Assembly (NCBI RefSeq): GCF_009695545.1
Contig: NZ_VUNS01000004.1
Location: 62,001-126,000 of the forward strand
DNA from: Victivallis lenta
Lineage (GTDB): Bacteria > Verrucomicrobiota > Lentisphaeria > Victivallales > Victivallaceae
DNA length: 64,000 nt
Direction of reading: 5' to 3'
Shown here: one piece after another, positions 11,011 to 59,152 of the stretch
Layout: each line of letters starts with the position of its first letter
Position numbering within the stretch: the stretch's first letter is position 1
Notes under the pieces: model-generated
Told to the model about the DNA's origin: nothing
Database searches by the model: none
What the model saw: the letters and a program-made list of their open reading frames with translations, nothing else
Position numbers and translations under genes: made by a program

Positions 11011-12087
11011 TTAATGGAACATCCATTCCAAATATTGTACCTTGTTGTCCGACGGGCCGCCGCTGTCGAACCCCGGATAGGTGAAGGTCAGCCGGGTGGA
11101 CGGGCTGCGCTGCGCCGGCAGCCCGACGGCGGAAACGGCGCTCTCTCCCGCGTCCGCAGCGGCGATCGTCTCCGGCAGCTGCGTCATGCGCGGCCCGACG
11201 GTGACGGTGTAGATGCCGCTCTCCTCCCATGAGAGCCCGTTCAGCCGCGGCGTCAGCAGCGCATCCAGCTGATCCGAAAGCAGAATCCGCTCCCGGCGGT
11301 AAACCTCAAGCGCGGCGAGCACCTGCTCGATCTCCTCGTCCTCGAGCCCCTGGCAGTAGGTCTGAAGCAAAAGCCGGTCGGCGGTGAAAATGCTGGGCGA
11401 CCCGTTCGGAATGGTCATCCCGTCCGGCGGAATCAGCCGGAGCGCGCTGAGCCGGCCGCTTCCGTCCGCCGGAAACATCTCCGTCACGCCCGGAATCCAT
11501 GCGAGCTCCTCGCGAAACTGCATCGCCGCGTTGCGCGGCAGCGGCGACATGCCGAACGCCTCGTAGTCGGCCTCCTCGAAGCCGTCGGTCGTAACCGTAT
11601 CGTCGGCATCGACATAGTCGGCAATCCGGGCTTTGAGCCGTTCGGTGGTATCGTAAAGTTCCGTATCAAGCTGATCGGAGCCGGCGACATTGGTCAGCGT
11701 GCTGTTGTACTGCGCGGCACTGAGATCGAACCCGCTGCGGGCATCGGTGATCGTGAATTCGACCGGCGTGCCGTAATAGTCCATCACATGAATCACGCCG
11801 TCCGCGAAAAAGCGGTCGGTGTCGTAGTCGGCGTACTCGGTCTCCCCGAGCTGCACGTTCGCATAGAGCGAACGGTCGGCCGCAATGAGATACTGAATCC
11901 GGGCTGCCGCCCCTTCGTTGACGTACATCGATTTCTGAAGCGCAAGGTGCGCCGCCATCGTGAAGCTGCCGTACTTCGACATGGCCAGCACGGCTCCGGC
12001 CAGCAGCCCGGCCATAAACACCAGACAGAGCACCGCGACAAGCGCGGAACCCGATTCCGACGAGCGTTCGTTGCGTCCTGCCATCAT
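11011..12087 (-). CDS. gspK: Type II secretion minor pseudopilin GspK
   Basis: Large minor pseudopilin that caps the tip of the T2SS pseudopilus. The 358-residue protein has a short polar leader ESG followed by SALVAVLCLVFMAGLLAGAVLAM, the GspK-type hydrophobic helix, which lacks the usual +5 glutamate, as is normal for this subunit. A long globular part follows, with the acidic segment DARSGFDLSAAQYNST that corresponds to the conserved D-x-x-G-x-x-N region of GspK. Among the nine pilin-like leaders in this window it is the only one retaining glycine before the cleavage point. One base separates its start from the gspJ stop. Confidence 0.85.
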   Translation of the reverse strand: MMAGRNERSSESGSALVAVLCLVFMAGLLAGAVLAMSKYGSFTMAAHLALQKSMYVNEGAAARIQYLIAADRSLYANVQLGETEYADYDTDRFFADGVIHVMDYYGTPVEFTITDARSGFDLSAAQYNSTLTNVAGSDQLDTELYDTTERLKARIADYVDADDTVTTDGFEEADYEAFGMSPLPRNAAMQFREELAWIPGVTEMFPADGSGRLSALRLIPPDGMTIPNGSPSIFTADRLLLQTYCQGLEDEEIEQVLAALEVYRRERILLSDQLDALLTPRLNGLSWEESGIYTVTVGPRMTQLPETIAAADAGESAVSAVGLPAQRSPSTRLTFTYPGFDSGGPSDNKVQYLEWMFH

Positions 12088-12088
12088 C

Positions 12089-12724
12089 TTACAACCCCGA
12101 AGTCTGCCGATTGCCGAAAGTGCTGTTCGAGCCGGAGCCGGCGGTGCGGCGCAGCCAGCGCTCGCTGGTTCCGTCGTTCCACTCGACGGTCATCTGGATT
12201 GCGAGCGGAGGCGCTTCGTGGTCATCCTCCTCCCAGGTATCCTCGAACTCGATCTCCTCATCGACCTCCTCGGCGTAGAGGAAGCGGATGCTGCGGACAT
12301 TTTTCGCAATCACCTCGCGCGCATACTCCTGTTTGCCCTCGTCCTCCCACGGCAGCCTCGGATAGCTCGAATATTCGGCGACGAGTTCGCCGTCCTCGAC
12401 CCGGAGCCGGACGAACAGCAGCGCGCCGCGGTCGTTTCCATAGGTGCGGCGGAGCGTCACAAAATGGAGCGAATCGGTTTTCCCCTCGAAGACGAGGCGC
12501 GACTCCTCCAGCTCGTCGCTCCAGCGGAACGGGATCAGGTTCCGGATATTCTGATCCATGATCCGGTCGATCGCCAGATACGCCTTGAGCTGTTCGGTGA
12601 CCTTCGCCGAGCGCCGGTAGCCGTTGTAGAACGTGGCCGAGGCAGTGCCGATGATGAGCGCGACAACGACCAGAATCGCCATCGCAATCGCCATCTCCAC
12701 CAATGTGAAGTTGTGTCTACTCAC
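12089..12724 (-). CDS. gspJ: Type II secretion minor pseudopilin GspJ-like
   Basis: About 211 residues with the pilin leader VSRHN followed by FTLVEMAIAMAILVVVALIIG; glutamate +5 is present and the -1 residue is asparagine. The rest is a mostly beta globular domain with many acidic residues (EEVDEEIEFEDTWEEDDHE). I chose the GTG at 12724, which overlaps the gspI stop (GTGAGTAG), because it gives a short leader; ATGs at 12742 and 12760 are in-frame alternatives. Position between gspI and gspK supports the J assignment; sequence alone would only say minor pseudopilin. Confidence 0.78.
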   Translation of the reverse strand: MSRHNFTLVEMAIAMAILVVVALIIGTASATFYNGYRRSAKVTEQLKAYLAIDRIMDQNIRNLIPFRWSDELEESRLVFEGKTDSLHFVTLRRTYGNDRGALLFVRLRVEDGELVAEYSSYPRLPWEDEGKQEYAREVIAKNVRSIRFLYAEEVDEEIEFEDTWEEDDHEAPPLAIQMTVEWNDGTSERWLRRTAGSGSNSTFGNRQTSGL

Positions 12725-13124
12725 CCTGTACGGTCGACTCATAGCTGAATTTATCCACAATGATTGAATCCACGGTTTTTCCGTCCCGCTGCCGGACCAG
12801 CTCGATCTCGCAGGCTTTCAGCGGAATCTGTCCGACGATGTTCGTATAGGTCTCCGGCAGATTTTCGGCGTCGCGGAACGTGCAGTTCGCCGTATAGCCG
12901 TCGTACGGAAAAAAATCGACCGGCACCGAACCGGGGTCCTCCCCCTTCTGGAGCAGGCAGTACTCCGCCGCCTGAATGAGCATGTGCGTCTCGCGCCACT
13001 TCTCCATCGTGCGGGCTAGCCGCCCCTGCGAGGCGGTCAGCAGCTGCAGCAGCCCGGCCAGCGCCAGCGCCAGGATGCCGAGGGCGACCACAACCTCGAT
13101 CAGCGTGAATGCTCCCCTTCTCAC
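12717..13124 (-). CDS. gspI: Type II secretion minor pseudopilin GspI
   Basis: The 135-residue protein starts MRRGA followed by FTLIEVVVALGILALALAGL, the strongly conserved GspI N-terminus. It has +5 glutamate and alanine, not glycine, at -1. A compact globular domain follows. It is coupled to gspH by a four-base ATGA overlap and overlaps gspJ. In known systems GspI forms the tip complex with J and K, and the order H-I-J-K is kept here. Confidence 0.88.
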   Translation of the reverse strand: MRRGAFTLIEVVVALGILALALAGLLQLLTASQGRLARTMEKWRETHMLIQAAEYCLLQKGEDPGSVPVDFFPYDGYTANCTFRDAENLPETYTNIVGQIPLKACEIELVRQRDGKTVDSIIVDKFSYESTVQGE

Positions 13125-13621
13125 AGCACGGCCTCCTCCTCCTTCGCCAGCAGCAGCCCGGTCAGCGGCGAAACCGCAAAGCGGCGCTGCAGCTTCCGAA
13201 ACCGCAGAATGAATTCGCGCGAAGCATTCGCACTGCCGTCCGAAAAAAAACGGAACACTTCAACCGTGCCGTTTTCGCCGGTTTCGGCGTTCAGCATTTC
13301 GGTGTCGAGCTCAAAATCGGCGGGCAGCTCCCAGACAAACGGCGGCCGCCCGTCTCCGGAAAAAGTGTTCTCCGCCGGCAATTCCGGCTCTTCCGCCGTG
13401 AACCGGCGCGCCGCCGGATCGAAGGCGACGACGCGGTCGGAACCGTTCTCCATCGCCGCATAACGCACCCGCGCGCAGTACGCCTCGAAACCGAGCGAGG
13501 CGTTCCGGAGCTTCTGCGCCGGGGATTCGCCGCGGAAGGTCGACACCGCAAGCGTGGTGGTGATCGCGATGATCGCAATCACCACCATCAGCTCAAGCAG
13601 CGTAAACCTCCGGCACACCAT
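13121..13621 (-). CDS. gspH: Type II secretion minor pseudopilin GspH
   Basis: The 166-residue minor pseudopilin starts MVCRR followed by [21 protein letters not shown], with +5 glutamate and arginine at -1. The globular part contains the RVVAFDPAARRF strand pair and the late FRFFSDGSA segment typical of GspH/FimT proteins. Its ATG shares one base with the gspG stop (TAATG), and its stop overlaps the gspI start. An upstream in-frame extension runs into gspG in another frame and is not used. Confidence 0.87.
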   Translation of the reverse strand: MVCRRFTLLELMVVIAIIAITTTLAVSTFRGESPAQKLRNASLGFEAYCARVRYAAMENGSDRVVAFDPAARRFTAEEPELPAENTFSGDGRPPFVWELPADFELDTEMLNAETGENGTVEVFRFFSDGSANASREFILRFRKLQRRFAVSPLTGLLLAKEEEAVL

Positions 13622-14049
13622 TATTTTTCCACGTAATTCGTGATGTCGGCGTTTTCTCCGGTGCCGCCCGGCTGGCCGTCGGCGCCGTAGCTGACCAGAT
13701 CGAAGTCGCCGTGTTCGCCGGGGCTGGTGTAAACGTAATCGTTGCCCCACGGGTCCTTCGGAACCGCCGGCTTGATGTACGGCCCGTCCCACTTCTCGTT
13801 CTGATCGACATTCTCGACCAGCGCGCGCAGGCCGGTCGCCGTATCCGGGTAGCTGCCGATGTCGAGCTTGTAGCCGGTCAGCGCGTCTTCGAGCAGTTTG
13901 ACCTGCGTCGTCGCCGCGCCGACGTTGGCCTTCTTCACGTAGTTCAGGTAGATCGGCGTGGCGATCGAAGCGAGCGTGACCAGAATGATGATCACGACCA
14001 CAACTTCGATCAGGGTGAAACGGCTTCTCTTGAAACAATGCTTTCTCAT
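13621..14049 (-). CDS. gspG: Type II secretion major pseudopilin GspG
   Basis: Main subunit of the T2SS pseudopilus. The 142-residue protein has a leader MRKHCFKRSR followed by FTLIEVVVVIIILVTLASIA; +5 glutamate is present, while -1 is arginine instead of the expected glycine. The C-terminal half has the family hallmark: DPWGNDYVYTSPGEHGDFDL and the SYGADGQPGGTGENADITN calcium-site loop. This is the clearest T2SS marker in the operon and separates it from a type IV pilus system. Confidence 0.96.
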   Translation of the reverse strand: MRKHCFKRSRFTLIEVVVVIIILVTLASIATPIYLNYVKKANVGAATTQVKLLEDALTGYKLDIGSYPDTATGLRALVENVDQNEKWDGPYIKPAVPKDPWGNDYVYTSPGEHGDFDLVSYGADGQPGGTGENADITNYVEK

Positions 14050-15260
14050 ATCGCAGGTCCTCCTTGACTGATTGAGTTGATTTCCATCATGGCGACAAAG
14101 ATCGAAACGACCACGACCAGCACGATGAGGGCGAGAAAAATGATCACCGCCGGCTCGAACAAACTGAGCAGCCGCTTGATTTTAAGTTTCGTATCGTTCT
14201 CGAGATGCGACGCGATCTTCGAGAGCATCTCGCCGACCGTGCCGGACTCCTCGCCGACCCGCAGCATCGGCACCATGCCGGCCGGAATGAACCGGTTCCC
14301 GGCCAGCGCGGCCGAGAGTTTGTCCCCTCCCTTGAGCTTGCGGTCGATCTCCGCGAATCCGGCCGACACGGTCGGGTTCGAGATGATCTTCCCCGAAATG
14401 CGGACGGTGCGGATGATCTCGACATGGTTCGCAATCAGAATCGCAAGCGTGCGGATGTATTTGCACATCTCGAGATCGACCACGATCCGCCCGAAAAGCG
14501 GCAGCTTCAGGACGAGCCGCGACAGCGCGATTTTGAGCTCCCGCTCGCCCATGATCTTCTTCAGCAGCAGCCAGCCGCCGATGCAGCAGAGCGGAATCAG
14601 CCACCAGGCCCAGGAGAAGAAAGAGCTCATCGCAAGCAGGAACTCCATCGACGGCGGCATCTCGCGCCCCATATCGATGAAAATCTTCGCAAAACGCGGC
14701 ACGAACACCGTGAAAAGCACGACCGTGACGATCATCGTGACCGTCAGGATCGCCAGCGGATAGATCGAGCTCGACACGATGAAGTCCTTCAGCTCCTTGC
14801 TCTCCCCCATGAACTTGTGCAGCTCGTTCACGACCTCCGGCAGACAGCCGGTCTCCTCGCCGGACTCGATCAGGTTCGCATAGTAACCCGGAAAGAGCGT
14901 CCCGTGGCTTCGGGCCAGCTCCGAAAATTTCTTGCCCTCGTGCAGCCCCTGGCGCAGCGCGTTCACGAAATCGCGCTGTTCCGCTTCGGTCGAACTGTCC
15001 GCAATGATCGCCAGCGCCCGTTCGAGCGGGATGTGCGAATCGAGCAGCGGCGCGAGCTGCCGCGTGAATTCGTAGGTGTTCACCTTGCTGCGGCGCAACG
15101 TGAACCTGCCGCCGGAAACGGTCGCCTCCCCGCAGTAACGCACGGGAACGATCTTCCGGCTGCGCAGTTTGCTTTGCGCCTCCGCGATGCTGTCGGCTTC
15201 GATCAGGATCTCGTGCGGCGCTTCGCCTTTCGCGGCAGCAAGGTATTTATAGAGTCCCAT
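14046..15260 (-). CDS. gspF: Type II secretion inner-membrane platform protein GspF
   Basis: Polytopic platform protein linking the ATPase to the pseudopilus. The 404 residues contain two repeated GspF domains: the first with FTRQLAPLLDSHIPLERALAII and GYYANLIESGEETGCLPEVV, the second with EMCKYIRTLAILIANHVEIIRTV and GMVPMLRVGEESGTVGEML. Membrane spans lie near 170-190, 215-240 and 375-395. It overlaps gspG by four bases and is three bases from gspE. Confidence 0.95.
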   Translation of the reverse strand: MGLYKYLAAAKGEAPHEILIEADSIAEAQSKLRSRKIVPVRYCGEATVSGGRFTLRRSKVNTYEFTRQLAPLLDSHIPLERALAIIADSSTEAEQRDFVNALRQGLHEGKKFSELARSHGTLFPGYYANLIESGEETGCLPEVVNELHKFMGESKELKDFIVSSSIYPLAILTVTMIVTVVLFTVFVPRFAKIFIDMGREMPPSMEFLLAMSSFFSWAWWLIPLCCIGGWLLLKKIMGERELKIALSRLVLKLPLFGRIVVDLEMCKYIRTLAILIANHVEIIRTVRISGKIISNPTVSAGFAEIDRKLKGGDKLSAALAGNRFIPAGMVPMLRVGEESGTVGEMLSKIASHLENDTKLKIKRLLSLFEPAVIIFLALIVLVVVVSIFVAMMEINSISQGGPAI

Positions 15261-15263
15261 TGT

Positions 15264-16862
15264 CTACAACTCCGCCGTGGAACGGTTCAGCTCTTCCGGG
15301 GTGGTAATGCCGGCCCGGACCTTCGCCAGGCCGTCCTCCTGCAGCGTCACCATGCCCTCCCTGACCGCAATCGCTTCCAGCTCCGAACTCGACGCGCTGC
15401 GGTTGATCGCCGCGCGCAGTTCGTCGCTGACCGTCAGCAGCTCGAAAATGCCGCAGCGCCCCTTGTAGCCGGAGCCGTTGCATCTGCGGCACCTGTTCCC
15501 GGCCGCATCGGTCGTCTTCCCGTGGCAGACCGGGCAGATTTTGCGGACCAGCCGCTGCGAAAGCACGCCGAACAGCGCCGACGAAACCAGGAAGTTCTCG
15601 ACGCCCATATCGAGCAGGCGGGTCACCGCGCCGACCGCGTCGTTCGTGTGCAGCGTCGAAAGCACGAGGTGGCCGGTCAGCGCCGCGTTGATCGCGATGT
15701 CGGCGGTTTCGCGGTCGCGGATCTCGCCGACCAGAATGATGTCGGGGTCCTGCCGCACAATGCTGCGCAGTCCGGTCGCAAAGGTCACGCCGATCTTCGA
15801 ATTGACCTGCATCTGGCAGAGCCCGGCCATTTTGTATTCGACCGGGTCCTCGACCGTGATGATCTTCTTGCGATTGTCGTTCAGCTGGTTGATCACGCTG
15901 TACAGCGTGGTCGTCTTGCCGCTGCCGGTCGGACCGACCACGAGAATGATGCCGTGCGGAATCTGGATCAGCTTTCTGAACTGCGCGAGATGGGTCGGCG
16001 ACATGCCGAGGATGCCGAGGTCGAATGAAATCGCCTCCTGGTTCAGCAGCCGCAGCACGATGCTTTCGCCGGTCAGGATCGGAATCGTCGAGATGCGCAT
16101 GTCGAGCTCCTGCCGGCCGAGCTGGATATTCGTGCGGCCGTCCTGCGGCAACCGGCTCTCGGCGATGTTGAGCCCGCCGAGCAGCTTGATGCGCGACGCG
16201 ATGGCCGGAAACTGCGAAAGCGGCGTGCTGATGATCTCGGTCAGAACACCGTCCACCCGGCATCGGACCGCGACGTTCTCTTCGCCGGGCTCGATGTGGA
16301 TGTCCGACGCGCCGAGCTCAATCGCGCGCGTGAAAATGTCGTTCACAAGCCGGACGATCCGCGCCTCGCCCGCCATCGAACGGAGCGTGTTCTCATCCTC
16401 GAGCTCCATCACCTCGTTTTCTTCTTCAAGGCTCTGGAGCTTGCTCGAAAGCCGCTCGAGGAAGGTACGGCGGACGAAACGGAACTTCGCGCCGGTCTTC
16501 CAGGTGCGGCGGACGAGGAACGTCAGCTGCTCGAGGTCGTACGGATCGACGACGAGAAACGTGATCGCATCGGCGTCCCACTCGGCCGGCAGGCAGCCGT
16601 TCGCGTTGAAAAAGTCGTACGGCGCATCCGGAAACGGCTCCGGCGTCCGGAACTCCTCCTCCTCGACCGGCTCCGTCCCGTAGGCGGCGGCATAGAGCGC
16701 GACCAGCTGTGACTCGGAGAGCGCGCCGGACTGGATCAACGCGCGGTCGGCCGCCCTGACCTCCTCGCGGGAGGGGGAAGCCGGGTAGTCCGGACTCTTC
16801 TCCGCCAGCATCCCGCGCAGCCGTTTCCGGGCGGCGGCGAAATCGTATCCGTCCGCACTCAT
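15264..16862 (-). CDS. gspE: Type II secretion ATPase GspE
   Basis: Cytoplasmic hexameric ATPase powering pseudopilus assembly. The 532 residues include the N-terminal GspL-binding domain, SDIHIEP near 186-192, Walker A GPTGSGKTT at 310-318, an Asp box around EDPVEYKMAGLCQMQVN, Walker B DIILVGEIRD at 374-383 and the His box LSTLHTNDA. The four-cysteine zinc motif specific to GspE/PilB is intact (C443, C446, C458, C461). It overlaps gspD by four bases. Confidence 0.96.
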   Translation of the reverse strand: MSADGYDFAAARKRLRGMLAEKSPDYPASPSREEVRAADRALIQSGALSESQLVALYAAAYGTEPVEEEEFRTPEPFPDAPYDFFNANGCLPAEWDADAITFLVVDPYDLEQLTFLVRRTWKTGAKFRFVRRTFLERLSSKLQSLEEENEVMELEDENTLRSMAGEARIVRLVNDIFTRAIELGASDIHIEPGEENVAVRCRVDGVLTEIISTPLSQFPAIASRIKLLGGLNIAESRLPQDGRTNIQLGRQELDMRISTIPILTGESIVLRLLNQEAISFDLGILGMSPTHLAQFRKLIQIPHGIILVVGPTGSGKTTTLYSVINQLNDNRKKIITVEDPVEYKMAGLCQMQVNSKIGVTFATGLRSIVRQDPDIILVGEIRDRETADIAINAALTGHLVLSTLHTNDAVGAVTRLLDMGVENFLVSSALFGVLSQRLVRKICPVCHGKTTDAAGNRCRRCNGSGYKGRCGIFELLTVSDELRAAINRSASSSELEAIAVREGMVTLQEDGLAKVRAGITTPEELNRSTAEL

Positions 16863-19150
16863 CGCCAGAACTCCGAACTGTCGAATTTATTGGCCCCCTT
16901 GCGCGGCTTCGCCTTGTCGCCGATCGTCTGGTCGAAGTCGTTCAGGCTCGAAAGCGCCTCGTTGTAACGCTTGATCAGCTCTTCGACCGGGCTGCGTTCA
17001 TCCACAATGTAGCCGGTGATCAGAACGAGGATCTCGGAGCGCTCAACCTTCGCCTCGGTGCTGCCGAAGAGCCGCCGCAGGAACGGGATGTCGTTCACGA
17101 ACGGAACGGACTGCAGTTCGTCGTTGCGCTTTTCCTGAATCAGCCCGCCGATGACCATGGTGCGGCCGTTGGCGATGGTCATGCCGGTCTCGATCTCCCG
17201 GACCGTGAGCTCCGGCGAATCGATCGTGGAGCTCGTGGTGTTCTTGATTGCGTCCGACAGCGTCTGCGTGACGTCAAGCGTGATGAGGTCGGTGCTCGTG
17301 ATCTGCGGCGTCAGCGTGAGGATGATGCCGGTATCCTCGTATTTATAAGTCTGCGTCACGCGTCCCTCGGAGGAGGAGTCCGTGATGCCGCCGGTGATGA
17401 CCGGCACCCGGCTGCCGACCTGAATCCGCGCCTCGGTATGGCTCGCAACCAGCAGCTGCGGGCTCGAAATGACCTTGATCGCATTGTTCCCGGCCAGCGC
17501 CCGGATATAGCCGAACTTGTTCTCGGGGTTGTTCGGGTCGTTCAGCAGGAAGGTGAAGCCCTCCTGCTTGCTCTCGCCGAACGGCGTCAGGTTCTCGTAA
17601 TTCGTGCCGAGCATGGAGTTCAGGCCGCTGCCGCTGCCCTTGGCCGCAAACTCGAGCCCGAACTTCGTCGACTCGGTCAGCGTGACCTCGACCACGAGCA
17701 CCTGCAGCAGCACCTGGGCCGGAACCACGTCGAGCCGGTCGAGCAGCGCCTTGATGCTCGCGTAGGTGCGCGGCGTGGTGCGGACCACGAGACGGTTCAG
17801 CATTCCGTCCGCGAAGATGCGGACCGGCGTATCGAAGAGGCTCGAACTCAGGTCGGTCTGCGTACTGTTGGAGAGCGTCGATCCGGTATTCGCGTTCCGG
17901 TTGTTGTTCTGCGCGGTGTTCCGGTTCGAGGAGGAGACCGTGCTCAGCGTATCGGTGCGGATGGTTCCGGTCGAGGTATCGATGGTCTGGGTCGCGCCCT
18001 GCGTGTTGTAGATGATCGAGAGCGCCTGCGCCAGCTGCGCCGCGCGGTTGTGGCTGACTTTGTAGACGAAAACGCGCTCCTGGTCGATCGAATCGGCGCT
18101 GTCGAAAATGTCGATCCACTTCTGGATCTCCTCGATCGCATCCTGCGTCGCGGCCGAAACCACGATCATCTGGAGCCGGTCGATGCCGACCAGCTGGATC
18201 GCTCCGGGCAGCTCGGTCTTGTCGGTGGTCTGCGTCACCGTGAAACCGAGCACGGGCAGGACATTCTGCAGCTCCTCGACCACCTTGGTCGGCAGGATGT
18301 TGCGGCACGGCACCGGCATGCGGGGCCAGTTGCGGCGCGCGCTCTGGTCGATGACTTCGAGAATCTGGCGCAGCTTCGCGATATTGCCCGCATCGTCGCA
18401 GATCAGGATCGCGTTCGGCCGGGTCAGTTCGACACAGACGCTGTCTTTGCCGAGAAACGGCTTGAGCTGCGTCACAACGTCTTTGGCGGTCGAATTCTTG
18501 AGCGGATAGTAGAAGATCTCGCTGCCGACTCGCGCGCCGGGCTGCTGGGCGAGCTTCGGCAGCGCCATGATCTTCAGGAGCGAATCCTCGACGGTCACGC
18601 CGGCGCCGGCCAGATTCAGCATGCGGTCGAAGGTGTTCCAGAGCTCCCGCCGGGTCATGTTCGAATTCAGATTCAGCGTCACGACGCCCTTGAGGTCGCT
18701 GTCCGCCACAAAGTTGAAGCCGAGCACATCGGCGAAGGCCGGCAGGACGTCGAGCAGCGGCGCGCTGTTGAACACGAGCGACACCGGAATCTCCTCGTCC
18801 CCGTTCATCAGCAGGAAGTCATCGTAAAAATGCGGCGTATCCTCCGCCTTCGGCGCCTCCGGCGGCGCGGGCTTCCCGCCTTTGTAGCTCAGCGCCTCGA
18901 GCTTCTTCTTCCCAAGCTCCCCCTCCCCGGCCGGTTTCGGAAGAACCTGTTCCTCTTCGATCGACTCGGGTTTGGCCGCCTCCCGGGGCTGCCGCTCGCT
19001 GCGCAGGAATTCGAAGCGGTCTTTCTTCTTTGCGTCCTCCTCCTCTTCGGGGCGGAACATCGCACAGGAGGAGAGCAGCAGCCCGGAGAGCACGACGGCG
19101 ACCGGCGTTCCGATACGCGGCAGAAGGTGTGTCATTCTTTTTCTTCTCAT
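16859..19150 (-). CDS. gspD: Type II secretion outer-membrane secretin GspD, lipoprotein-like leader
   Basis: Forms the outer-membrane export channel. The 763-residue protein begins with a signal peptide ending LLSSC (cysteine 29), a lipobox, so it may be lipid-anchored without a separate pilotin. A charged linker (roughly 30-110) precedes the N0 domain (PVSLVFNSAPLLDVLPAFADVLGFNFVAD) and N1-N3 repeats. A low-complexity Asn/Thr/Ser insertion around 400-440 (NRNTAQNNNRNANTGST) sits in N3, and the secretin core includes VPVITGGITDSSSEG and EDTGIILTLTPQI. An ATG at 19135 is an equally possible start. The gene is 59 bases from the gspC-like gene. Confidence 0.94.
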   Translation of the reverse strand: MRRKRMTHLLPRIGTPVAVVLSGLLLSSCAMFRPEEEEDAKKKDRFEFLRSERQPREAAKPESIEEEQVLPKPAGEGELGKKKLEALSYKGGKPAPPEAPKAEDTPHFYDDFLLMNGDEEIPVSLVFNSAPLLDVLPAFADVLGFNFVADSDLKGVVTLNLNSNMTRRELWNTFDRMLNLAGAGVTVEDSLLKIMALPKLAQQPGARVGSEIFYYPLKNSTAKDVVTQLKPFLGKDSVCVELTRPNAILICDDAGNIAKLRQILEVIDQSARRNWPRMPVPCRNILPTKVVEELQNVLPVLGFTVTQTTDKTELPGAIQLVGIDRLQMIVVSAATQDAIEEIQKWIDIFDSADSIDQERVFVYKVSHNRAAQLAQALSIIYNTQGATQTIDTSTGTIRTDTLSTVSSSNRNTAQNNNRNANTGSTLSNSTQTDLSSSLFDTPVRIFADGMLNRLVVRTTPRTYASIKALLDRLDVVPAQVLLQVLVVEVTLTESTKFGLEFAAKGSGSGLNSMLGTNYENLTPFGESKQEGFTFLLNDPNNPENKFGYIRALAGNNAIKVISSPQLLVASHTEARIQVGSRVPVITGGITDSSSEGRVTQTYKYEDTGIILTLTPQITSTDLITLDVTQTLSDAIKNTTSSTIDSPELTVREIETGMTIANGRTMVIGGLIQEKRNDELQSVPFVNDIPFLRRLFGSTEAKVERSEILVLITGYIVDERSPVEELIKRYNEALSSLNDFDQTIGDKAKPRKGANKFDSSEFWR

Positions 19151-24286: not shown

Positions 24287-24397
24287 ATAATATGTACTAT
24301 GTTCAGCCGTGTCGAACAGAACACACAGGAAACGGAAAAACAGGGAAAGAAGAAAAATGAAAAAGAGGCACAAAATGCGTAACATAGTACATATTAT
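24287..24397 (+). repeat. 17-bp perfect inverted repeat bracketing the pseudopilin start codon
   Basis: Left arm 24287-24303 is ATAATATGTACTATGTT and right arm 24381-24397 is its exact complement. One U-G wobble and two C-G pairs extend it to about 20 pairs (24284-24400). The 77-base loop holds the ribosome binding site and the ATG at 24357. The right arm lies inside the coding sequence. In RNA this would put the translation start in the loop of a long stem. Alternatively, the two arms could bind a protein. Confidence 0.8.
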
Positions 24398-25070
24398 GCG
24401 TTTCCGCTTCACCTTGATCGAGCTTCTGGTTGTCATCGCGATCATCGCAATTCTGGCCTCGATGCTGCTGCCGGCGCTGAACCAGGCGCGGGAACGGGCC
24501 CGGGCCACCAGCTGTCAGAACAATCTCCGGCAGCTCGGGCTGCAGATTCAGCTCTACGCCGACAGCAACAGGGACCGGCTTCCGGAAGCGGATGCCAAAA
24601 GCTCGGGAGTCAGCTGGGAACACCGGCTTGTCAACAGTATGGTTCAGTATTCCGGCAAAGTGACCAAGCTGTTCAAATGCCCCAGCGACACGATCCCGCG
24701 CACCGCCGCCGCGCTGGCAGTCAACAACAACCCCAAGAGCTACCGCTGCAACGGTTACCTGTGGGGAAACGCCGATGGTTCCTGCATCGAAGGCGCTTAT
24801 CTGAGGACAAGAAATCGGCCTTCGCAACTGATCTCCCTCGTCTGCCAGCCGCATGAAGGAATGGTGTTCTACTCCGGGACCGCCGCATTTCAGTATGGTT
24901 TTTCCATGCCGAGCGCAACCAGTTCCGGCCAGTGGACGCACGGTTCCAAAGGCACCTACCTTTTTCTCGGGGGGAACGTCGGAAACGTCTCTTTCAATTC
25001 CGCGACGGTTTCGGACTCAACTCTGTCCAAACGCCACTGGCGGGCGAACAAGGCTGAATCCGAGCCCTGA
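24357..25070 (+). CDS. Pseudopilin-like secreted/surface protein (accessory pseudopilin 1)
   Basis: The 237-residue protein has a basic leader [17 protein letters not shown], then [20 protein letters not shown], the class III prepilin helix with +5 glutamate and arginine at -1. The globular part contains paired cysteines (C-Q-N-N near 42; C-P-S-D; C-N-G; C-I-E; C-Q-P) and ends [13 protein letters not shown]. The processing-associated H-X9-DG motif is degenerate ([15 protein letters not shown]). I chose ATG 24357 because the leader then aligns with its downstream paralogue; a GTG at 24309 and ATGs at 24375 and 24396 are possible. Likely a T2SS/T4P-like filament or surface protein; function inferred only. 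Confidence 0.85.
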
Positions 25071-25120: not shown

Positions 25121-25804
25121 ATGAAGAACCGGAACAGAATACGTAATATCTTCACCGCCAGCCGTTTTCCATTCACCTTGATCGAACTTCTGGTTGTTAT
25201 TGCAATCATTGCGATCCTGGCCTCGATGCTGCTGCCGGCACTGAACCAGGCGCGGGAGAAAGCCCGGGAAACCACCTGCAAGGGAAACCTCAAGCAGATC
25301 GGGCTCCAGTGCCAGATGTACGCCGACGCCAACAAAGACCGCCTGCCGCAAGCCGACAGCGGCGTCGGCTGGGAGCACCGGCTTCTGGACGGCGGATACA
25401 TCCCGTATTCCGGCGGCGGCGTGAAACTGCTGCGCTGTCCGAGCGACCTCATCAAACGCACCACAACCGAACACAGCCCCAAAAGCTACCGGGCGAACGG
25501 ATATCTCTGGTCCGACGGCGACGCATCCTGCCTGAAGGGGGCAATCAACCGGGTGCGGAACCGGCCGTCCCAGCTGATCTCCCTGGTCTGCCAGCCGCAC
25601 GAGCAGATGACCTGTTACAGCGGCGCAGTCGCAACCCATTACCAGTTCTCGATTCCGACCCAGTGGACCCACGGCGGAACCAAAGGGACATTCCTCTTTC
25701 TGGGCGGCAATGTCGACAATATCATGATCAACAGCGCGAATGTCAGTGACGGAACCATGCACAAGCGCCACTGGCGGGCGAACAAGGCCGAATCCGAGCC
25801 TTAA
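25121..25804 (+). CDS. Pseudopilin-like protein (accessory pseudopilin 2), paralogue of copy 1
   Basis: The 227-residue protein begins [17 protein letters not shown], then [20 protein letters not shown]; +5 glutamate present, proline at -1. It shares the same order of features with the protein at 24357: Q-A-R-E-x-A-R, YADxNKDRLPxADS, GWEHRL, CPSDxI, KSYRxNGYLW, [16 protein letters not shown] and the ending [13 protein letters not shown]. It lies 50 bases after copy 1 without an obvious promoter or terminator, so the pair is probably one transcript. The similarity indicates tandem duplication. Confidence 0.87.
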
Positions 25805-26987: not shown

Positions 26988-29900
26988 ATGAAACGACTGT
27001 TCGCCGGTATTTCGGCACTGTTTGTGCTCGCCGCCTCCGGGGCTATGGTTCCGGACGGATTCCATTTTGAAAAGAACGACCATTTCCTGACCCCCTCCGA
27101 ATCGCTCAGCTTCACCTACCGGTTCCAGGACGGTGACGACAGCGCGCTGCGCGAAGGAGTCGACTACCGGATTTTCGACCTCGCCAACCGGCAGCTTGCC
27201 GCCGGTGTCGCCCGCGCCTTCGAAAAACAGGGCAGACTGGCCGTCTACCGGCTGCTGACGCCGAAGCAGGTTTCCGCGCTCAAGAGCGGCTGGCATACGC
27301 TTGAAATCAAGCCGGCAGCCGACAAACAGGCGGCTTATTTCCGGATGAAATTTTATGTCCGCAGCGGCAAATTCGCCCATCGGGTCGTCTATCTGCTCGA
27401 CAGCGTCACGCCGGAGGGATTCGCTTTCTGGATCAATGGAGACGGCAACCTGATCGAGCCGCTCCGCGATTTCCCGGAGCAGGGCAAGCCGGACTGCGTC
27501 GTGGTCTCAAGCTATGCCCCGCTGCCGGAATCGAAATTCGAAGCACTGAAATCGTACGTCGCAAACGGCGGAACCGCTCTTTTCTTCGGCGTCAACCATC
27601 CCCAGCTTGACGAGCTGAACCCGCTCAAGCTGAACCGCGGCTCCCTGTATCCCGCCGCGCCGAAGCGCGACCATGCGGGCAATCCCGCCTACCTGCTCAA
27701 CGCCTCGACGGCCGAAGATGCAAAGCTGCTGCAGGCCGCTTCCGACGGTTCTCCCGAAATCGCCGAAAAGCGGTTCGGCTCCGGCCGCGTCATCGCCTAC
27801 GCCGGAGCGCTGAAGCCGGGCGCCGGTTACGATGGAATGATCTATCCGTACGGTCTCGGACTCAAGGCCGAACGTCAGGCCCCGGCCGTGTTCCGCGCCG
27901 CCGCGCCCGACGCCGACGGCTTTCGCGAAGGGATCAGCCGCAACAACTTCGGGCGGTTCGGCTGGCTGAACGACGACCGGATCAACGCCATCAGCATCCG
28001 TCCGGAACAGACCTTCCGGATGTGGGACGTCGATCAGGATTACTTCGGCGTGAGCTTCTCCGGCAGCCACACGCCGGGCAAACTCGCGGCACTCAAAACC
28101 AGCTGGCTCGGCAAATCCATGCTCGGGACCGGCGGCCGCTGGGGACAGGGCACCGAAATCGTCTGGGGGCTCGGCACGCCCGGCGTCCTGCTGCGCAACC
28201 CCGATGCGGATAAAGTTTCGATCGAGAGCCCGATGTCGGCGACGCTGGCCTATCCGGTCAAAGGCGGGACCCGCGCGATTTCGCTGGAACCGGGCGCGAT
28301 GGTCGATCTCAAGGGACTCTCCTCCAACTGGTTCCTGGTCTGGAAGCGGACGGACAAATACGATGCGTGGCCGCTGCTCTTCACCTTCAGCCGTAAAATC
28401 TCCGCTGCCCGGATGAACGGCAAACACCTTGAAATCGATTTCGCGAAACGCGGCGTCGATCTCGCCGTCATGCCGCTGGCCGGCATCAAGCACTACACGC
28501 CCGCCGAAACCGTCGGCTGGGAACAGGCGCTCCCGGCGGACATCGCCGCCCGCTGCGCCCGCTGGAGCCGGATTCAGGCCGCGCGGACAGTCGGCTGCAC
28601 CGAACGCTACAAGCTCGACAAGAAGAACGGCACCGTCCTGATCCGCAACGACTTCGACTATCTGGTCATTCCGAACGACTGGGGCGTCGAGCCCGAATAC
28701 GTCGCTCCGGTTCCGCCGCTGCTGCCGCTCTATGCGAAGTCCGGCAACGTGAAGTTCGCCGACGGAACCGCCGACCTCGACTACGCGACTTTTCAGGGGC
28801 CGCTGCACGGAGTTTCCGGCAAACGTTCCGAATACACGCTCGCGATTCCGGAAGTCGATTATCCGCTGCCGGTGACGGCTGCCGATCCGCACCTCGAACT
28901 GCCGGTGAACAAAGCGCTGTTCGAACGGATCACCGAACACCTAGCGGAGCCGGGGCTCTCCTATATCCCCTCCGACTACGGCATTGTGGAACGCCGGGAA
29001 AAAACGGTCTACCCGGAACGCGAACTGCGCGAAGCGACCTCCATGAAACCCGGCCCCGAAGCGGCGGAATGGAACTACATCGACCTGCACCGCACGCTCG
29101 GCGGCGTGGCCGGCAACCTCATGTTCAAGCCGTATCTCGACGGCATCAGGGGATACGGCGACACCCGCGCCCGGCTCAACGCGAAGATCGCCCGGAATAT
29201 CCGGCGCGACATCGAATTCTTCCAGTACAAGACCTTCCTGCGTTACCGGCAGGAGCCGTTCACCGGCGCCTGGTACCTGATGGCGTTCATCGCCCCGGTC
29301 CGCTTCAACGACGGCTACTGGATGTTCCACGACATGAATGAGACGGCCGGCATCTTCCTCCAGACGCTCGGCCTTTACAGCCGCATCATGGGCGACCCGG
29401 TATTCTTCGCGTCGAACGAACCGTACATCGACCTCTTCATGAGCAATCTCCTGGTTTCGCACGACTGGTCCTGGATGGCCTCGAATGCGGTCGAATGGGG
29501 CATGGGCAACAACATCGACATGCTGAACGCCGAGCTTTCCGGCTGGGCCGGGATGGTCCGGATCAAGGAGTTCCTCGGCAAGCCGGACGAGGCCGACTTC
29601 GGCCGTTACATGGCCGCCAAAGCCGGCGCATCGACCGGGGCCCGGCTGCTGATGAGCGAATTCTATAACTCGCTGAACTTCCCGATTCCGCCGCACCTGG
29701 CGCCGGTTATCCACGAGATGGCCGACGTTGAACAGGCCGGACGCAAGGACGCCTACCTGCCGCTCGGCGTCTCACAGGGCTACGGCGAAGGATGGCCCTC
29801 GCTCTGGCCGACTTCGATCTCGAAGGGGCTGCTGAACCACTTCATCGACGGCAAGGACTTTTACAGCACGAGCAAGGGCGTTCCGGTCGAGCTGCTGGCC

Positions 29901-30692
29901 TTCTACCGCTCGAACGAGGCGCTGGCGGAACCGCTGCGGAAGTACGAAGCCGCCTTCCGCGACGCCGCATACGCCGCCAAAGCGCCCTATCTGTACAGCC
30001 GGACCGCCGGCAACGCCTACCTGAAGTCTCCGCGCGACCGCGCCGATCTCGAACGCATGCTCTACCGCACCTTCACCATGCCGGGCTGTTCGGCGAACGC
30101 GCTCGGCGCCGGGCTGGCCGACTGGGAGACGCCCGCGATGGTGATCCTGCTCGACCTGCTCCGCGAAAGCGCCGCCGAAGACCGGCGCGCCGGACAGCTC
30201 CCGTTCGGCGATGAACGGGCCGGAACCTTCCAATGGGAAACCGCCGGTCCGAAAAACGCCGCCTCCGCCTCGAAGGTCCGGACCGTTCGCGCCGCCGACG
30301 AGCCGGAGAACGTCGCGGACGGCGCCGTTTCGACCCGGATCGAGCTCGCCGCGCCGGCCGGCAGCGAGTCGCCGGCCGCCTTCACGCGGTTCGATGCGGC
30401 CGCGGCCGCCCGGAAGAAGTGCACGGCGGTCAGCTTCCGGTACAAGGCCGAAACGCCGGGTTCCCTGCGGATCGCGCTCCCGAACCGCGACTGGACGCGC
30501 CGCGCCGAAGCCGTGCTTCCGCTCGACGGGAACGCCGCCGGATGGCGCACTGTCAGGCTTGAATTCGAACGGGACTTCAAGTTCGGCAGGAACGGCATGA
30601 AGCCGGAGGAGCTGCGCGGCGAAATTTTCCTGTACAACGCCTCCGGCGCCCCCGTGAAGTTCATCATCGACGATCTCCGCCTCGAACCGTAA
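26988..30692 (+). CDS. Large secreted protein of unknown family, probably polysaccharide-active
   Basis: The 1234-residue protein has a signal peptide (MKRLFAGISALFVLAASGAM). An N-terminal beta domain (about 20-120) is followed by a Rossmann-like segment with VVVSSYAPLPESKFEALKSYVANGGTALFFG, resembling the glutamine-amidotransferase-like domain of some beta-galactosidases. A long middle beta region precedes a mainly helical region (about 650-1060, with IDLHRTLGGVAGNL, WYLMAFIAPVRFNDGYWMFHDMNETAGI and WSWMASNAVEWGMGNN) that could be an (alpha/alpha) toroid. The C-terminal about 150 residues look like a carbohydrate-binding beta sandwich ending FIIDDLRLEP. The AGGTATGCC context gives a weak binding site. 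No catalytic motif can be named. A terminator follows. Confidence 0.8.
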   Translation: MKRLFAGISALFVLAASGAMVPDGFHFEKNDHFLTPSESLSFTYRFQDGDDSALREGVDYRIFDLANRQLAAGVARAFEKQGRLAVYRLLTPKQVSALKSGWHTLEIKPAADKQAAYFRMKFYVRSGKFAHRVVYLLDSVTPEGFAFWINGDGNLIEPLRDFPEQGKPDCVVVSSYAPLPESKFEALKSYVANGGTALFFGVNHPQLDELNPLKLNRGSLYPAAPKRDHAGNPAYLLNASTAEDAKLLQAASDGSPEIAEKRFGSGRVIAYAGALKPGAGYDGMIYPYGLGLKAERQAPAVFRAAAPDADGFREGISRNNFGRFGWLNDDRINAISIRPEQTFRMWDVDQDYFGVSFSGSHTPGKLAALKTSWLGKSMLGTGGRWGQGTEIVWGLGTPGVLLRNPDADKVSIESPMSATLAYPVKGGTRAISLEPGAMVDLKGLSSNWFLVWKRTDKYDAWPLLFTFSRKISAARMNGKHLEIDFAKRGVDLAVMPLAGIKHYTPAETVGWEQALPADIAARCARWSRIQAARTVGCTERYKLDKKNGTVLIRNDFDYLVIPNDWGVEPEYVAPVPPLLPLYAKSGNVKFADGTADLDYATFQGPLHGVSGKRSEYTLAIPEVDYPLPVTAADPHLELPVNKALFERITEHLAEPGLSYIPSDYGIVERREKTVYPERELREATSMKPGPEAAEWNYIDLHRTLGGVAGNLMFKPYLDGIRGYGDTRARLNAKIARNIRRDIEFFQYKTFLRYRQEPFTGAWYLMAFIAPVRFNDGYWMFHDMNETAGIFLQTLGLYSRIMGDPVFFASNEPYIDLFMSNLLVSHDWSWMASNAVEWGMGNNIDMLNAELSGWAGMVRIKEFLGKPDEADFGRYMAAKAGASTGARLLMSEFYNSLNFPIPPHLAPVIHEMADVEQAGRKDAYLPLGVSQGYGEGWPSLWPTSISKGLLNHFIDGKDFYSTSKGVPVELLAFYRSNEALAEPLRKYEAAFRDAAYAAKAPYLYSRTAGNAYLKSPRDRADLERMLYRTFTMPGCSANALGAGLADWETPAMVILLDLLRESAAEDRRAGQLPFGDERAGTFQWETAGPKNAASASKVRTVRAADEPENVADGAVSTRIELAAPAGSESPAAFTRFDAAAAARKKCTAVSFRYKAETPGSLRIALPNRDWTRRAEAVLPLDGNAAGWRTVRLEFERDFKFGRNGMKPEELRGEIFLYNASGAPVKFIIDDLRLEP

Positions 30693-42135: not shown

Positions 42136-42858
42136 ATGAAACGGAATTTCACCTTGATCGAACTTCTTGTCGTTATTGCGATCATCGCGATCCTCGCCTC
42201 GATGCTGCTGCCCGCGCTGAATCAGGCAAGAGAACGCGCCCGCTCCACATCGTGTACCGGAAATCTGAAGCAAATCATGACCGGTTTTCAATTCTACGCG
42301 GACGATTACGACGGAATCGTCATGCGCTATTCGAAGGCGGCCGGCAACAAATCGTGGTCCGAATTCATAATCGGCCGCACCGGGGGTAATGCCTATCTGC
42401 CGGACACCAGACAAAATAAGCTGCTGGTCTGTCCTTCGAGTCTATCGGCCGGAAAAGATTATTTTCTGTATCAGACCTACGGAGCCTTCGACAATCGCTA
42501 CAACGGAAGCGATACCACCCGCTACGAGGCGAAGATCAAGGAAACTGGGCCGTATTTTCACAAGTTCGACAACAATAACAACGGCTATTCCTTCAAGAAA
42601 ATGAAAACTCCATCGCAGATTCTTCTGGTGATGGATACCGAATACCGCGGAACTCACTCGAACGCGGGGAAGATGCTCTGGTTCTTCCAACCGAATGTTG
42701 ATGGCGAAGGGGGCGCGTCGATCCGGCACAACAACCGTGCAAATACCGCATTTGCAGACGGCCATGTCGCCTCGCTGGGCAAGAAGGAACTATATCGGTC
42801 GTCCGCCACCATCGAACAGGTCGTCAGGAACGGCGTTCCTGTCGCGACGCAGGAATGA
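42136..42858 (+). CDS. Pseudopilin-like protein with H-X9-DG motif (accessory pseudopilin 3)
   Basis: The 240-residue protein has a short leader MKRN, then [20 protein letters not shown]; +5 glutamate is present and asparagine is at -1. The globular domain ends with an intact processing-associated H-X9-DG motif ([17 protein letters not shown]). Earlier are CTGNLKQI and CPSSLSAG, the usual cysteine pair. ACGGAG precedes the ATG; an in-frame ATG at 42106 lies at the predicted transcription start and is less likely. Six bases separate its stop from the glycosidase start, so they form a two-gene unit. Confidence 0.92.
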
Positions 42859-42863
42859 TTGCC

Positions 42864-45836
42864 ATGAAACTGTCACTTTTCTGCATATCGTTTGCATTGA
42901 TATCCATAACTGCCGCCGCTCCATTGCCGGTCCATTGGTCAGCTTCGGCAGTTCAGGCAAAAAGCCGCCGCCATTCGGCGATCAGCGCGACTTTGCCGGA
43001 CGGTTCTCCGGGAATCCGGTTCTGCTGGGAATCCGGCAATACTCCGTATGGGGAATTCGTCTTTACGAAACCAATCCGGCTCGGTCGTTTCGAACCGTGT
43101 GTGCTACGAGCCGCCCTGCATGGGAAATTGACAGAAAACTTCGACCGGATTCGAATTCGTCTCACCGACTCATCTGGCGAAACGTTTCAGTTCGATACCC
43201 GGAAACGCGGTTTTCACGACAGTGTCGAATTTGAAATCACACAGGAAAAAATCCGTGATTTCTGGGGCGGTGACAAAAACGGACGCATCGATGGAGAAGT
43301 CACAATCACCGGATTCGCCATCGGATTCCGTGGTACGGGAAAACGCGGCGAGTTCACAATAGGACGTATCGAAAAATTTTCACTCGCAGCCATTGAAGCG
43401 AAAGTCGACACCGGAGATCCGCTGTACCTGATCCGTCCCGGCGAAGAGTCGAAACTCGCCGTTGTTTTCACCAACTGCGGCGACCGTGAATTCGACGGAA
43501 GAGCCTCCTGTCGCTTTGAAGACTTCTACGGCCGACATTTCCGACTTGAACGGTCATTATCACTGCCACCGGGAGGAACGATGCGCCTGCCGCTTAACCG
43601 TCCGCTTCCCGCGCCGGGACATTGGCAGATTTTCTGGACAGTACAGGGAAATAAGGAAGGAGCGGAGCACGGCGGAACCCTGCAATTCGCCAGCCTGGAA
43701 CCATCCGGACCAACTCCGAATCGTACTTCCGGTTTCCTGTTCGGTGTCCATTCGCATCCCTACCGCTGGAGTAAACAGGACCGCGAGCTTGAAGCGCGGG
43801 CCGCCGGCTTGGCTGGCATCAAGGTTCTGCGGCTCGATATTCACTGGCGCGCACTCCAGCCGCAACCGGGTGGAGACTGGGACTTCAGCTATCCCGATTC
43901 CGTGCTGCGTCTCTACGAATCGCATGGAATCGAATTCGAAGCTCTGCTCGGTGCGCCGCCACGCTGGGCTGTAACTCCGGGATACGTACCGGTGCGTTCC
44001 GACATCAGGGGTGAGATTCGACCGCAGACCGCCCTTTACCGGGAATATATCCGCCGAGTCGCCGAGCGCTATCGCGGCAAAATCCGCTTCTACGAGCAGT
44101 TCAACGAACCGGACCTTGCTGCCTTCTACAACTTCGGAGCAGAGGATTACATCGAGCTTTTCCGTGCCGGAGCGGAAGAGCTACGCAAGGCTGATCCGGC
44201 CGCCGTGATCCTGACCGGCGGCTTTGCCACGATGCTGCAGGTGGCGAGCTCCCACGCTCCCGGTTATATCGAAAAAGCGTTGGCGGGAACCAACGGCACG
44301 TTCGACATTCATGCGCATCACGAGCACGGTCCTTTCGAAGCGTATTGCCGGATCATCGACGAACAATTTCTGCCGATGCGACGCCGGCTCGGCATAGCTG
44401 CCCCGTGGTATGCGAATGAGACCGCACTCACTGCGGCCGGGGGCCGTGAAAAGCGTCAGGCGGCCGCTCTCTGGAAAAAACTATTATTCGCCTGGAGCCG
44501 CGGCGCGGTCGGCTACAACTGGTACGATCTCAGGAACGACGGATTCGACCCGGATAACGGCGAACACAATTACGGATTGCTCACCAACGATTTTCAGCCC
44601 AAACCGGTCTATGTCGCGTATAACACGCTGACCGGGCTTTTCCGTACGAAAAAATTCCTCCGGCAGCTTCCCGCACCTGACGGAATCTGGCTGTTTGAAT
44701 TCGCCGATCATCAGAAACGGCTGCTGGCAGCATGGAGTGAGGTCGATACGCCCCCCGCAACGCTGCTCTTTCAGACGAGTGCCGCAGGAACGGTCCCGGA
44801 GCTTGTCGACCTGATGGGAAACCGGAGACCGATTCCGACAGTTGGCGGCTGTTTCCCGCTTGAAGCCTCCGAGTATCCTGTCGCGGTTGAACTTCCGGTC
44901 TCGACAGATATCGAACCGGCTGGCCAACTATTCAAAGCCGTCTTTTCCGGAGCGGCAGTCGCAGGGAAAACATTCGCTTTTCAGTTCACAGCAAACAATC
45001 CCCTGCCGAAACCGGAGAATTTTGTTCTTCGATTTTCGCCCCCTCCCGGCATCCGCCTCATCTGCCCGGAACTCCGCATCTCTCTCGCCGCCGGGGAATC
45101 GCGGTGCATTCCAATTGAGGCTCAGGTCGACGCAAAATTCCGCCTGCCATCCGGCGTCCGAGATTTCATCAAAGTGGAATGGCACGGAATCAATTCCGGC
45201 TGGACTGGCTGTTTTAAACTGCCCGTATTGTCCGCGACCGTGATTCCCGCGAAGCGGAACGACGGCGCGCCGGATTTTCTGCTGAACCGGCGTGAGCAAG
45301 TTCACAGCCTGATCGGCGCCGATCCGAGCAGGGAACATCTGAACTGGAAGGGGCCGGAAGACCTGAGCGCGACCGCCCGCCTGAGCCAAGATGGACAGAA
45401 CTTCATCCTGGCCGTGGATGTGACTGACGACCGCCATTGCCAGCCGTTCTCCGGTTCCGGCGTCTGGCAGGGAGACTGTGTACAGTTTGCCATCGCTGTT
45501 CCGGAACATTCCGGCCTGTGGGAAATCGGTCTGACCCGGCGTGACGACGGAAAAAACGAAGTATTCTGCTGGAGTACTCCGGATGGACTTGATCCGGCGC
45601 CAGTAATGAAAACCGCGGTTCTGAAGACTGAGCGGGACGGCAACCGAACCTCCTATCAGGTATCGATCCCCCTTACTGCGCTCAAGCTGTCGCCGAAGCT
45701 GCTGCGGCAAGGATTCCGGTTCAATCTCCTGATTAACGACAACGACGGCGAAGGACGCGAAAATTGGATTCACATTGTTCCCGGCATCGGAGAATCCAAA
45801 ACACCGGAGCAATATCCGCTCGTAGTGTTTGAATAA
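42864..45836 (+). CDS. Secreted clan-A glycoside hydrolase with C-terminal CBM9-like domain
   Basis: About 990 residues with a signal peptide (MKLSLFCISFALISITAAAP). An N-terminal beta sandwich (to about 180) and an Ig-like domain lead to a TIM barrel from about 290: GFLFGVHSHPYRW, VLRLDIHWRALQPQPG, acid/base glutamate near 415 in RFYEQFNEPDLA and probable nucleophile near 519 in WYANETALT. This is the GH5/GH39-like clan-A pattern. Two further beta domains follow, the last (about 795-985) with SATARLSQDGQNFILAVDVTDD and QGDCVQFAIA, like CBM9 domains. AGGA lies 9 bases before the ATG at 42864; an ATG at 42855 overlaps the upstream stop. Codon choice looks more AT-rich than neighbours by eye. 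Confidence 0.87.
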   Translation: MKLSLFCISFALISITAAAPLPVHWSASAVQAKSRRHSAISATLPDGSPGIRFCWESGNTPYGEFVFTKPIRLGRFEPCVLRAALHGKLTENFDRIRIRLTDSSGETFQFDTRKRGFHDSVEFEITQEKIRDFWGGDKNGRIDGEVTITGFAIGFRGTGKRGEFTIGRIEKFSLAAIEAKVDTGDPLYLIRPGEESKLAVVFTNCGDREFDGRASCRFEDFYGRHFRLERSLSLPPGGTMRLPLNRPLPAPGHWQIFWTVQGNKEGAEHGGTLQFASLEPSGPTPNRTSGFLFGVHSHPYRWSKQDRELEARAAGLAGIKVLRLDIHWRALQPQPGGDWDFSYPDSVLRLYESHGIEFEALLGAPPRWAVTPGYVPVRSDIRGEIRPQTALYREYIRRVAERYRGKIRFYEQFNEPDLAAFYNFGAEDYIELFRAGAEELRKADPAAVILTGGFATMLQVASSHAPGYIEKALAGTNGTFDIHAHHEHGPFEAYCRIIDEQFLPMRRRLGIAAPWYANETALTAAGGREKRQAAALWKKLLFAWSRGAVGYNWYDLRNDGFDPDNGEHNYGLLTNDFQPKPVYVAYNTLTGLFRTKKFLRQLPAPDGIWLFEFADHQKRLLAAWSEVDTPPATLLFQTSAAGTVPELVDLMGNRRPIPTVGGCFPLEASEYPVAVELPVSTDIEPAGQLFKAVFSGAAVAGKTFAFQFTANNPLPKPENFVLRFSPPPGIRLICPELRISLAAGESRCIPIEAQVDAKFRLPSGVRDFIKVEWHGINSGWTGCFKLPVLSATVIPAKRNDGAPDFLLNRREQVHSLIGADPSREHLNWKGPEDLSATARLSQDGQNFILAVDVTDDRHCQPFSGSGVWQGDCVQFAIAVPEHSGLWEIGLTRRDDGKNEVFCWSTPDGLDPAPVMKTAVLKTERDGNRTSYQVSIPLTALKLSPKLLRQGFRFNLLINDNDGEGRENWIHIVPGIGESKTPEQYPLVVFE

Positions 45837-58410: not shown

Positions 58411-58429
58411 ATAACATTCCCTTCGACGG

Positions 58430-59152
58430 TCAATCTTTGGAGAGATGTTCCCAACCATAACCGGTGGAGGCATCGAACTCGGGGCAGGTCGTATGCGGCA
58501 TCAGGTCCGAACGGACTTTCAACCCCGAAACATGCCAGTCGAACCAAAGCGTGTTGACCGTGAGATTGTGCCGGCCGGCGGGACAGCCGTAATCTTTATT
58601 CGTGTAATTGCCGTTGTAGACAGAGTGGGGGGCGAAGCGGAAAAAACCCTTGGTGATATCGGGCTGCTTTTTGCCGGTGTCCGTTCCCCAGGTATCCACG
58701 ACCGCGATTTTGGTGGAAGCCTTTTTCAGCCTGGTCAGCTTGAGGCCGCCCAGATCGGAGACGCAATGATTATTGATGCCGTAATGCGGTGTATACTCCC
58801 ACCAGTTGATGGAGGTATTGGCTTCCGGCTGTGAAGGACAGCGGAATTGGGCAACGGTGAGGTAACCGCCCTGTGCTTTGTCCGGCCGGCCCGTATTCCG
58901 GGTCGTCCCCAGCAGAGCATCCGTCCAGAGCGGCGTTGTGTAATTCGGCAGGGCGGGCGGCACCATGTCCTGATAATCGTTTGCATAAAGGGCGAATGCG
59001 CTGCCGATCTGCTTGAGATTGTTGACGCAGCTGGAAGCCTGCGCCCTGGCACGCGCCTGGTTCAGCGCCGGCAACAGCATCGAAGCCAGAATCGCGATGA
59101 TCGCAATCACCACCAGCAGTTCCACCAAGGTAAACCTTCTCACCCCGTCCAT
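58430..59152 (-). CDS. Pseudopilin-like protein (accessory pseudopilin 4)
   Basis: The 240 residues have leader MDGVRR, then [20 protein letters not shown]; +5 glutamate present, arginine at -1. The globular domain carries [25 protein letters not shown] and an H-X9-DG-like motif in which DG has become DW ([17 protein letters not shown]). It is the first gene of a two-gene unit with the secreted glycosidase downstream. A likely binding site, GGAGG, lies about 10 bases before the ATG. Confidence 0.92.

Follow-up and report, generated by a model that had tools for sequence, protein, structure and literature searches.

Pilins of the class Lentisphaeria depart from Gly or Ala at the last position of the leader (position -1, or P1), and this departure is a trait of the whole class, not of the locus in the window (the whole 64,000-nucleotide stretch of DNA that was analysed). 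Comparison of the sequences suggests that the prepilin peptidase (PilD) of the class probably cuts before Phe+1 and recognizes the FTLxE motif on the mature side with P1 left free, and that a P1 Gly is needed where this motif is missing, as in GspK.

The minus strand of the window carries an operon for type II secretion comprising GspD, E, F, G, H, I, J and K, with H and I assigned by position and leader. Pfam matches identify the GspD secretin (16859-19150; PF00263), the GspE ATPase (15264-16862; PF00437), GspF (14046-15260; PF00482), GspJ (12089-12742; PF11612) and GspK (11011-12087; PF21687), and the major pseudopilin GspG (13621-14049; PF08334, E 4.8e-40) has the C-terminal T2SSG domain and lies in one operon with these components. 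The GspG leader, MRKHCFKRSR/FTL (the slash marks the boundary between positions -1 and +1), ends in Arg (codon 14020-14022) directly before Phe+1 at 14019. The GspH-position pseudopilin (13121-13621), assigned by position and its FTLLEL leader and without a match in the Pfam search, also has Arg at -1 (MVCRR/FTL; codon 13607-13609). The GspI-position pseudopilin (12717-13124, GTG start), assigned by position, leader and the Pfam N-methyl motif, has Ala at -1 (13110-13112) and Gly at -2 (MRRGA/FTL), and the GspJ leader ends in Asn (MSRPYRVSRHN/FTL; codon 12710-12712). GspK carries Gly at -1 (...SSESG/SALVAVL; 12049-12051) and has neither Phe+1 nor Glu+5. Four accessory DUF1559-type pilins complete the set, with Arg (24357-25070, plus strand; codon 24405-24407), Pro (25121-25804, plus strand; 25169-25171), Asn (42136-42858, plus strand; 42145-42147) and Arg (58430-59152, minus strand; 59135-59137) at -1.

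The initial annotation had read R, R, A, N, R, P, N and R before the eight FTL starts and Gly at -1 in GspK alone among the nine leaders, and re-reading gave identical residues. Its count of eight departures among nine leaders becomes seven, since Ala is accepted in ordinary bacteria and the GspI leader is therefore regular. It ascribed to prepilin peptidases a preference for Gly, but ordinary bacteria tolerate Ala too, as stated in a passage of a review (PMC10191384) and as seen in 275 of 1119 sites outside the class. Revised start sites that would place Gly before Phe, which it had named as a possible refutation, are ruled out because the reading frame determines the -1 codon.

Very large ORFs lie next to the accessory pilins. 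The pilin at 42136 overlaps a downstream ORF of 993 aa (42855-45836, plus strand) and the one starting at 59152 on the minus strand overlaps a downstream ORF of 1203 aa (54862-58473, minus strand), both with weak glycosyl-hydrolase 39/42 matches, and downstream of the pair at 24357 and 25121 come a LacI-type regulator and an ORF of 1234 aa without Pfam match (26988-30692, plus strand). Such neighbours, in view of the more than 200 pilin sites per genome, are a hint that pilins may be paired with cargo proteins.

The extent of the trait was assessed by counting the DNA pattern FTL-x-E-x-x-V preceded by any residue, by Gly or by Ala in 288 genomes of the phylum. The window's own genome (5.5 Mb) contains 229 such sites compared with one for the reversed pattern, and these sites are thus not due to chance; nine are preceded by Gly and ten by Ala. 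The same genome has at least 150 matches to PF07963 (150 of 283 candidates were scored), and among 44 pilins read in 800 kb of this genome and in the window, none has Gly and four have Ala at -1. In 98 sampled genomes of the Lentisphaeria, a class assignment inferred from named relatives, 921 of 6296 sites have Gly (357) or Ala (564) at -1, and the remaining 5375 (85.4%) have another residue; these counts cover FTL-x-E starts only and some class tallies include decoy repeats. In the rest of the phylum (190 genomes, 172 of which contain a site), Gly (834) or Ala (275) precedes 1109 of 1119 sites, leaving 10 others (0.9%). Where a genome has three or more sites, the share of sites without Gly or Ala ranges from 0.49 to 1.00 in the class (median 0.88; 95 genomes) and from 0 to 0.25 outside it (median 0; 149 genomes), with no overlap between the two ranges; as sites are paralogs and genomes are related, test values for these comparisons are descriptive.

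A scan of named genomes yielded 80 PilD loci, and site counts cover 42 of these genomes. Ten that fall into the class PilD clade, labelled Victivallaceae, Victivallales, Lentisphaeria, Lentisphaerae or Victivallis, have Gly at 44 of 340 sites, and the 32 others, which according to their record titles include Desulfobacterota, Nitrospirota, Kiritimatiellota, Omnitrophota, Acidobacteria and more, have Gly at 115 of 142 sites, five of them being without any site. In the Kiritimatiellota genome B12222, all 14 fetched non-Gly sites have Ala. One record titled Lentisphaerae (L170) falls outside the class, and its genome has the same sites as G225. Two MAG records titled Klebsiella pneumoniae (L183) and Victivallis vadensis (L160) encode PilDs 40% and 45% identical to that of the window's genome, and their titles look doubtful.

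Individual class genomes show further peculiarities. G284, of the window's family, has Gly at 49 of 148 sites compared with 4 of 133 in its congener G202, which has a very similar PilD, perhaps owing to a lineage-specific burst of paralogs. At two loci (L299 in G269 and L301 in G002), a second in-frame FTLIELLV lies 64 or 113 codons upstream of the real pilin start and leads into polar sequence (KTCQ or KTRQ). In L299, approximately 180-200 bp around this extra motif recur (with 83% identity within L299 and 81% in L284), as if the 5' end of a pilin gene had been copied in part and repeated; the Ala richness of some class genomes may be owed to such decoy repeats.

GspG orthologs, identified by their C-terminal domain and excluding matches that fell short of GspG residue 70, have Gly at -1 in 2 and Ala in 3 of 28 class sequences, the remainder being R, N, W, K, L, D, P, S, Y, F or C, whereas outside the class 19 of 21 have Gly and 2 have Ala. 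Pilins located near PilD or GspG outside the class have 42 Gly and 8 Ala among 50, and all 22 outside sites fetched as non-Gly have Ala (one Gly pilin was also in this set). Among 156 class pilins to which a start was assigned, a set from which decoy ORFs beginning with a particular 21-residue sequence were removed, R, K or H occupies -1 in 31%, S, T, C, N or P in 29%, an aromatic residue in 14%, Gly or Ala in 17% and an acidic residue in 3%, with R, K, S, N, Y, F, P, H, L, C, D, V and W among the residues seen. Positions -2 and -3 are R, K or H in 62-64%, and leaders are mostly short and basic, with a mean net charge of +3.2 in the 130 without Gly or Ala at -1. Gly or Ala is mildly more frequent at -1 than at -2 (26 compared with 11 of 156).

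The mature side of the same pilins is strongly conserved. Glu+5 is present in all 88 class pilins in which the search left this position free, and Phe+1 in 146 of 148 class pilins without Gly or Ala at -1; six non-pilin matches (enzymes and PilD itself; four from the class, two from outside) were excluded by eye, two of them from this group. One class GspI (L105) has Leu+1 following Pro-1, and Phe+1 itself is thus not the whole signal. The hydrophilic leader, the hydrophobic tract and Glu+5 of class III signal peptides are all present, and the leader-terminal Gly or Ala is missing, in 7 of 9 window leaders and at 5375 of 6296 class sites. With this one stated defining feature absent and the other testable ones retained, the class pilins represent a variant of the class III signal peptide.

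The window's own genome encodes one full PilD (locus L001) with the A24_N and A24 domains (PF06750 and PF01478). It also contains a short A24 homologue, Tad-type by size (G000:C45:1688-1993, in a 204 aa frame), and, within an 894 aa frame, a match to A24 below the threshold (G000:C2:291815-291970). A second A24 peptidase was ruled out as a general cause and is not needed, since three genomes with a single A24 match (G006, G202 and G235) still show the trait. Locating PilD and comparing its active-site surroundings, as the initial annotation had proposed, revealed intact catalytic Asp and Zn-binding Cys residues and changes at other positions. The first catalytic Asp (D146) is conserved in 36 of 36 class PilDs and the second (D218) in 35, the exception (L078) ending at a contig end, and every complete class PilD has both together with the GxGD motif; the Zn-binding Cys residues of the methyltransferase domain (C65, C68, C90 and C93) are present in all 36. 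Omitting the truncated L078 from the tree and the position comparison, class PilDs form one clade (35 tips, support 0.895) in a tree of 126 sequences.

Several positions that are near-invariant in the 91 PilDs from outside the class are altered throughout the class. Position 119 is aromatic or His in 81 of 91 outside PilDs and in none of 35 class PilDs, which have small residues there, and position 143, one turn before D146, is Thr or Ser in 84 of 91 compared with 4 of 35. Likewise, Trp, Tyr or Phe at 199 (75 of 91 compared with 6 of 35), Trp at 231 (69 of 91 compared with 2 of 35) and Val or Ile at 234 (78 of 91 compared with 3 of 35) are largely lost, and positions 190, 194, 214 and 221 are changed mainly in the window's order; Fisher values for the PilD and -1 comparisons are not to be read as probabilities, the sequences being related. 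Several of the changed positions (119, 123, 231 and 234) may be remote from the active site, and the differences could reflect phylogenetic drift unrelated to specificity. Mean PilD identity is 0.38 within the class and 0.44 within the outside set, and faster overall evolution of class PilDs is thus partly true, which makes the PilD changes supportive only. An S1-pocket assignment from an AlphaFold2 model of PilD (pLDDT 90.2) was dropped, as Foldseek gave just a weak match to FlaK (3s0x; probability 0.82, E 2.2), and a PDB search with the PilD sequence returned pentatricopeptide-repeat artefacts and nothing else.

GspK, which starts without the FTLxE motif, serves as an internal control. The first class set contained 30 loci, of which 27 were readable (L302, L316 and L321 were not), with 25 Gly and 2 Asn (L307 and L309) at -1. 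The second set gave Gly in 13 of 13, with L341 and L347 unread and L346, which is without its N-terminus, left out. The Gly of the window's GspK is thus no odd survivor, as 38 of 40 class GspK sequences share it; two further class GspKs outside this count (L138 and L140) also have Gly. Four large proteins with GspK-like starts (L348-L351) were excluded, among them very large ORFs in G080 (L348, 908 aa frame) and G002 (L350, 1115 aa frame) with GspK-like leaders ending in Gly (QRG/SALLLTL and QRG/VALLFAL). Apart from cleavage, there is little reason for a residue that is removed along with the leader to be conserved, and PilD is therefore probably working in the class, with Gly still mattering where FTLxE is absent.

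The retention of Gly in 38 of 40 GspKs alongside its loss in other pilins can also be read as PilD needing Gly and the other pilins remaining uncut. PilD would then be kept for GspK-type Gly substrates, and the FTLxE pilins, many of which have leaders of just four residues, would function or serve as membrane anchors with the leader attached. This reading appears unlikely, given that Phe+1 and Glu+5 are fixed in the pilins read and that leader removal is required for assembly in other bacteria, according to passages of two articles (PMC4471445 and PMC8546353). It is weakened further by one genome (G058, 98% complete) that has an intact PilD and 68 FTLxE sites, none with Gly or Ala, and in which a substrate search covering T2SSG and GspK returned no match to either; the GspK profile used there found GspK in 16 of 20 genomes.

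A peptidase other than those of family A24 that removes the leaders, with PilD specificity unchanged, would account for the free -1 and the GspK Gly together, but no candidate was seen and PilD itself is remodelled, making this explanation improbable. We hold it to be just as improbable that PilD has loosened its P1 preference for all substrates alike and that the GspK Gly was kept by chance or shared descent: the broad -1 spectrum and the two GspKs with Asn agree with such relaxation, but the Gly is kept across the orders sampled and, lying outside mature GspK if the cut is made after it, has no other evident role. Cleavage elsewhere, for instance by PilD at a shifted site or by signal peptidase I downstream of the helix, is very improbable: no supporting evidence was found for either, one 16-residue mature start occurs unchanged within the class and outside it (52 of 156 class and 2 of 73 outside pilins), and a shifted site with a canonical residue nearby was rejected, just 13 of the 130 leaders without Gly or Ala at -1 having one of them at -2 or -3.

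Altered peptidase specificity and unprocessed pseudopilins had been offered side by side in the initial annotation; the former fits best, indirectly, with the class-wide pattern, the intact and remodelled PilD and the GspK Gly, and the latter is its main rival. Under altered specificity, the leaders of class FTLxE pilins would still be removed by PilD directly before Phe+1, which PilD may methylate. Recognition would be supplied by the mature side (Phe/Tyr-T-L-x-E) instead of a P1 Gly or Ala, and we propose that the last leader residue drifts for this reason, while substrates lacking the motif would retain the ancestral P1 Gly and the sequence changes in PilD would cause the shift. We lean towards a class-wide move of recognition of this kind, in which pilins with an aromatic +1 residue accept any P1 and GspK-type substrates need Gly.

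The class system resembles the canonical one of GspG and PilA in its short basic leader, Phe+1, Glu+5 and approximately 20 hydrophobic residues, as well as in the presence of PilD, the GspG domain and a type II secretion operon, but differs in that almost any residue can occur at -1. Its PilD likewise shares the PF06750 and PF01478 pair, both catalytic Asp residues, GxGD and the Zn Cys-Cys pairs with PilD/GspO of MEROPS family A24, but differs at positions near-invariant elsewhere (class-wide at 119, 143, 199, 231 and 234), and its pilins have mature starts near-identical to those of sister groups in the phylum, including the shared 16-residue start, but not their Gly or Ala at -1. In archaea, class III signal peptides are processed by different peptidases, namely FlaK, PibD and EppA. 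They too show many exceptions to Gly, as noted in a passage of PMC4471445. The same article calls the final leader residue, Gly, absolutely critical, and according to the review cited above (PMC10191384), the leader "invariably" has Gly or Ala as its last residue. No report on -1 residues in Lentisphaeria pilins was found in the open-access PMC literature.

Bacterial prepilins are generally taken to follow the Gly/Ala rule, and prediction programs rely on it: PilFind requires the pattern [GAS]-x4-[DE] (PMC3244431), which most class pilins do not match. With their clear contrast to sister groups, GspK as internal control and a short list of candidate PilD positions, the Lentisphaeria offer a natural experiment in P1 choice by a membrane protease of the GxGD type. 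If true, the proposed shift would mean that a protease of this type, acting on up to hundreds of substrates per genome, has switched its specificity in nature.
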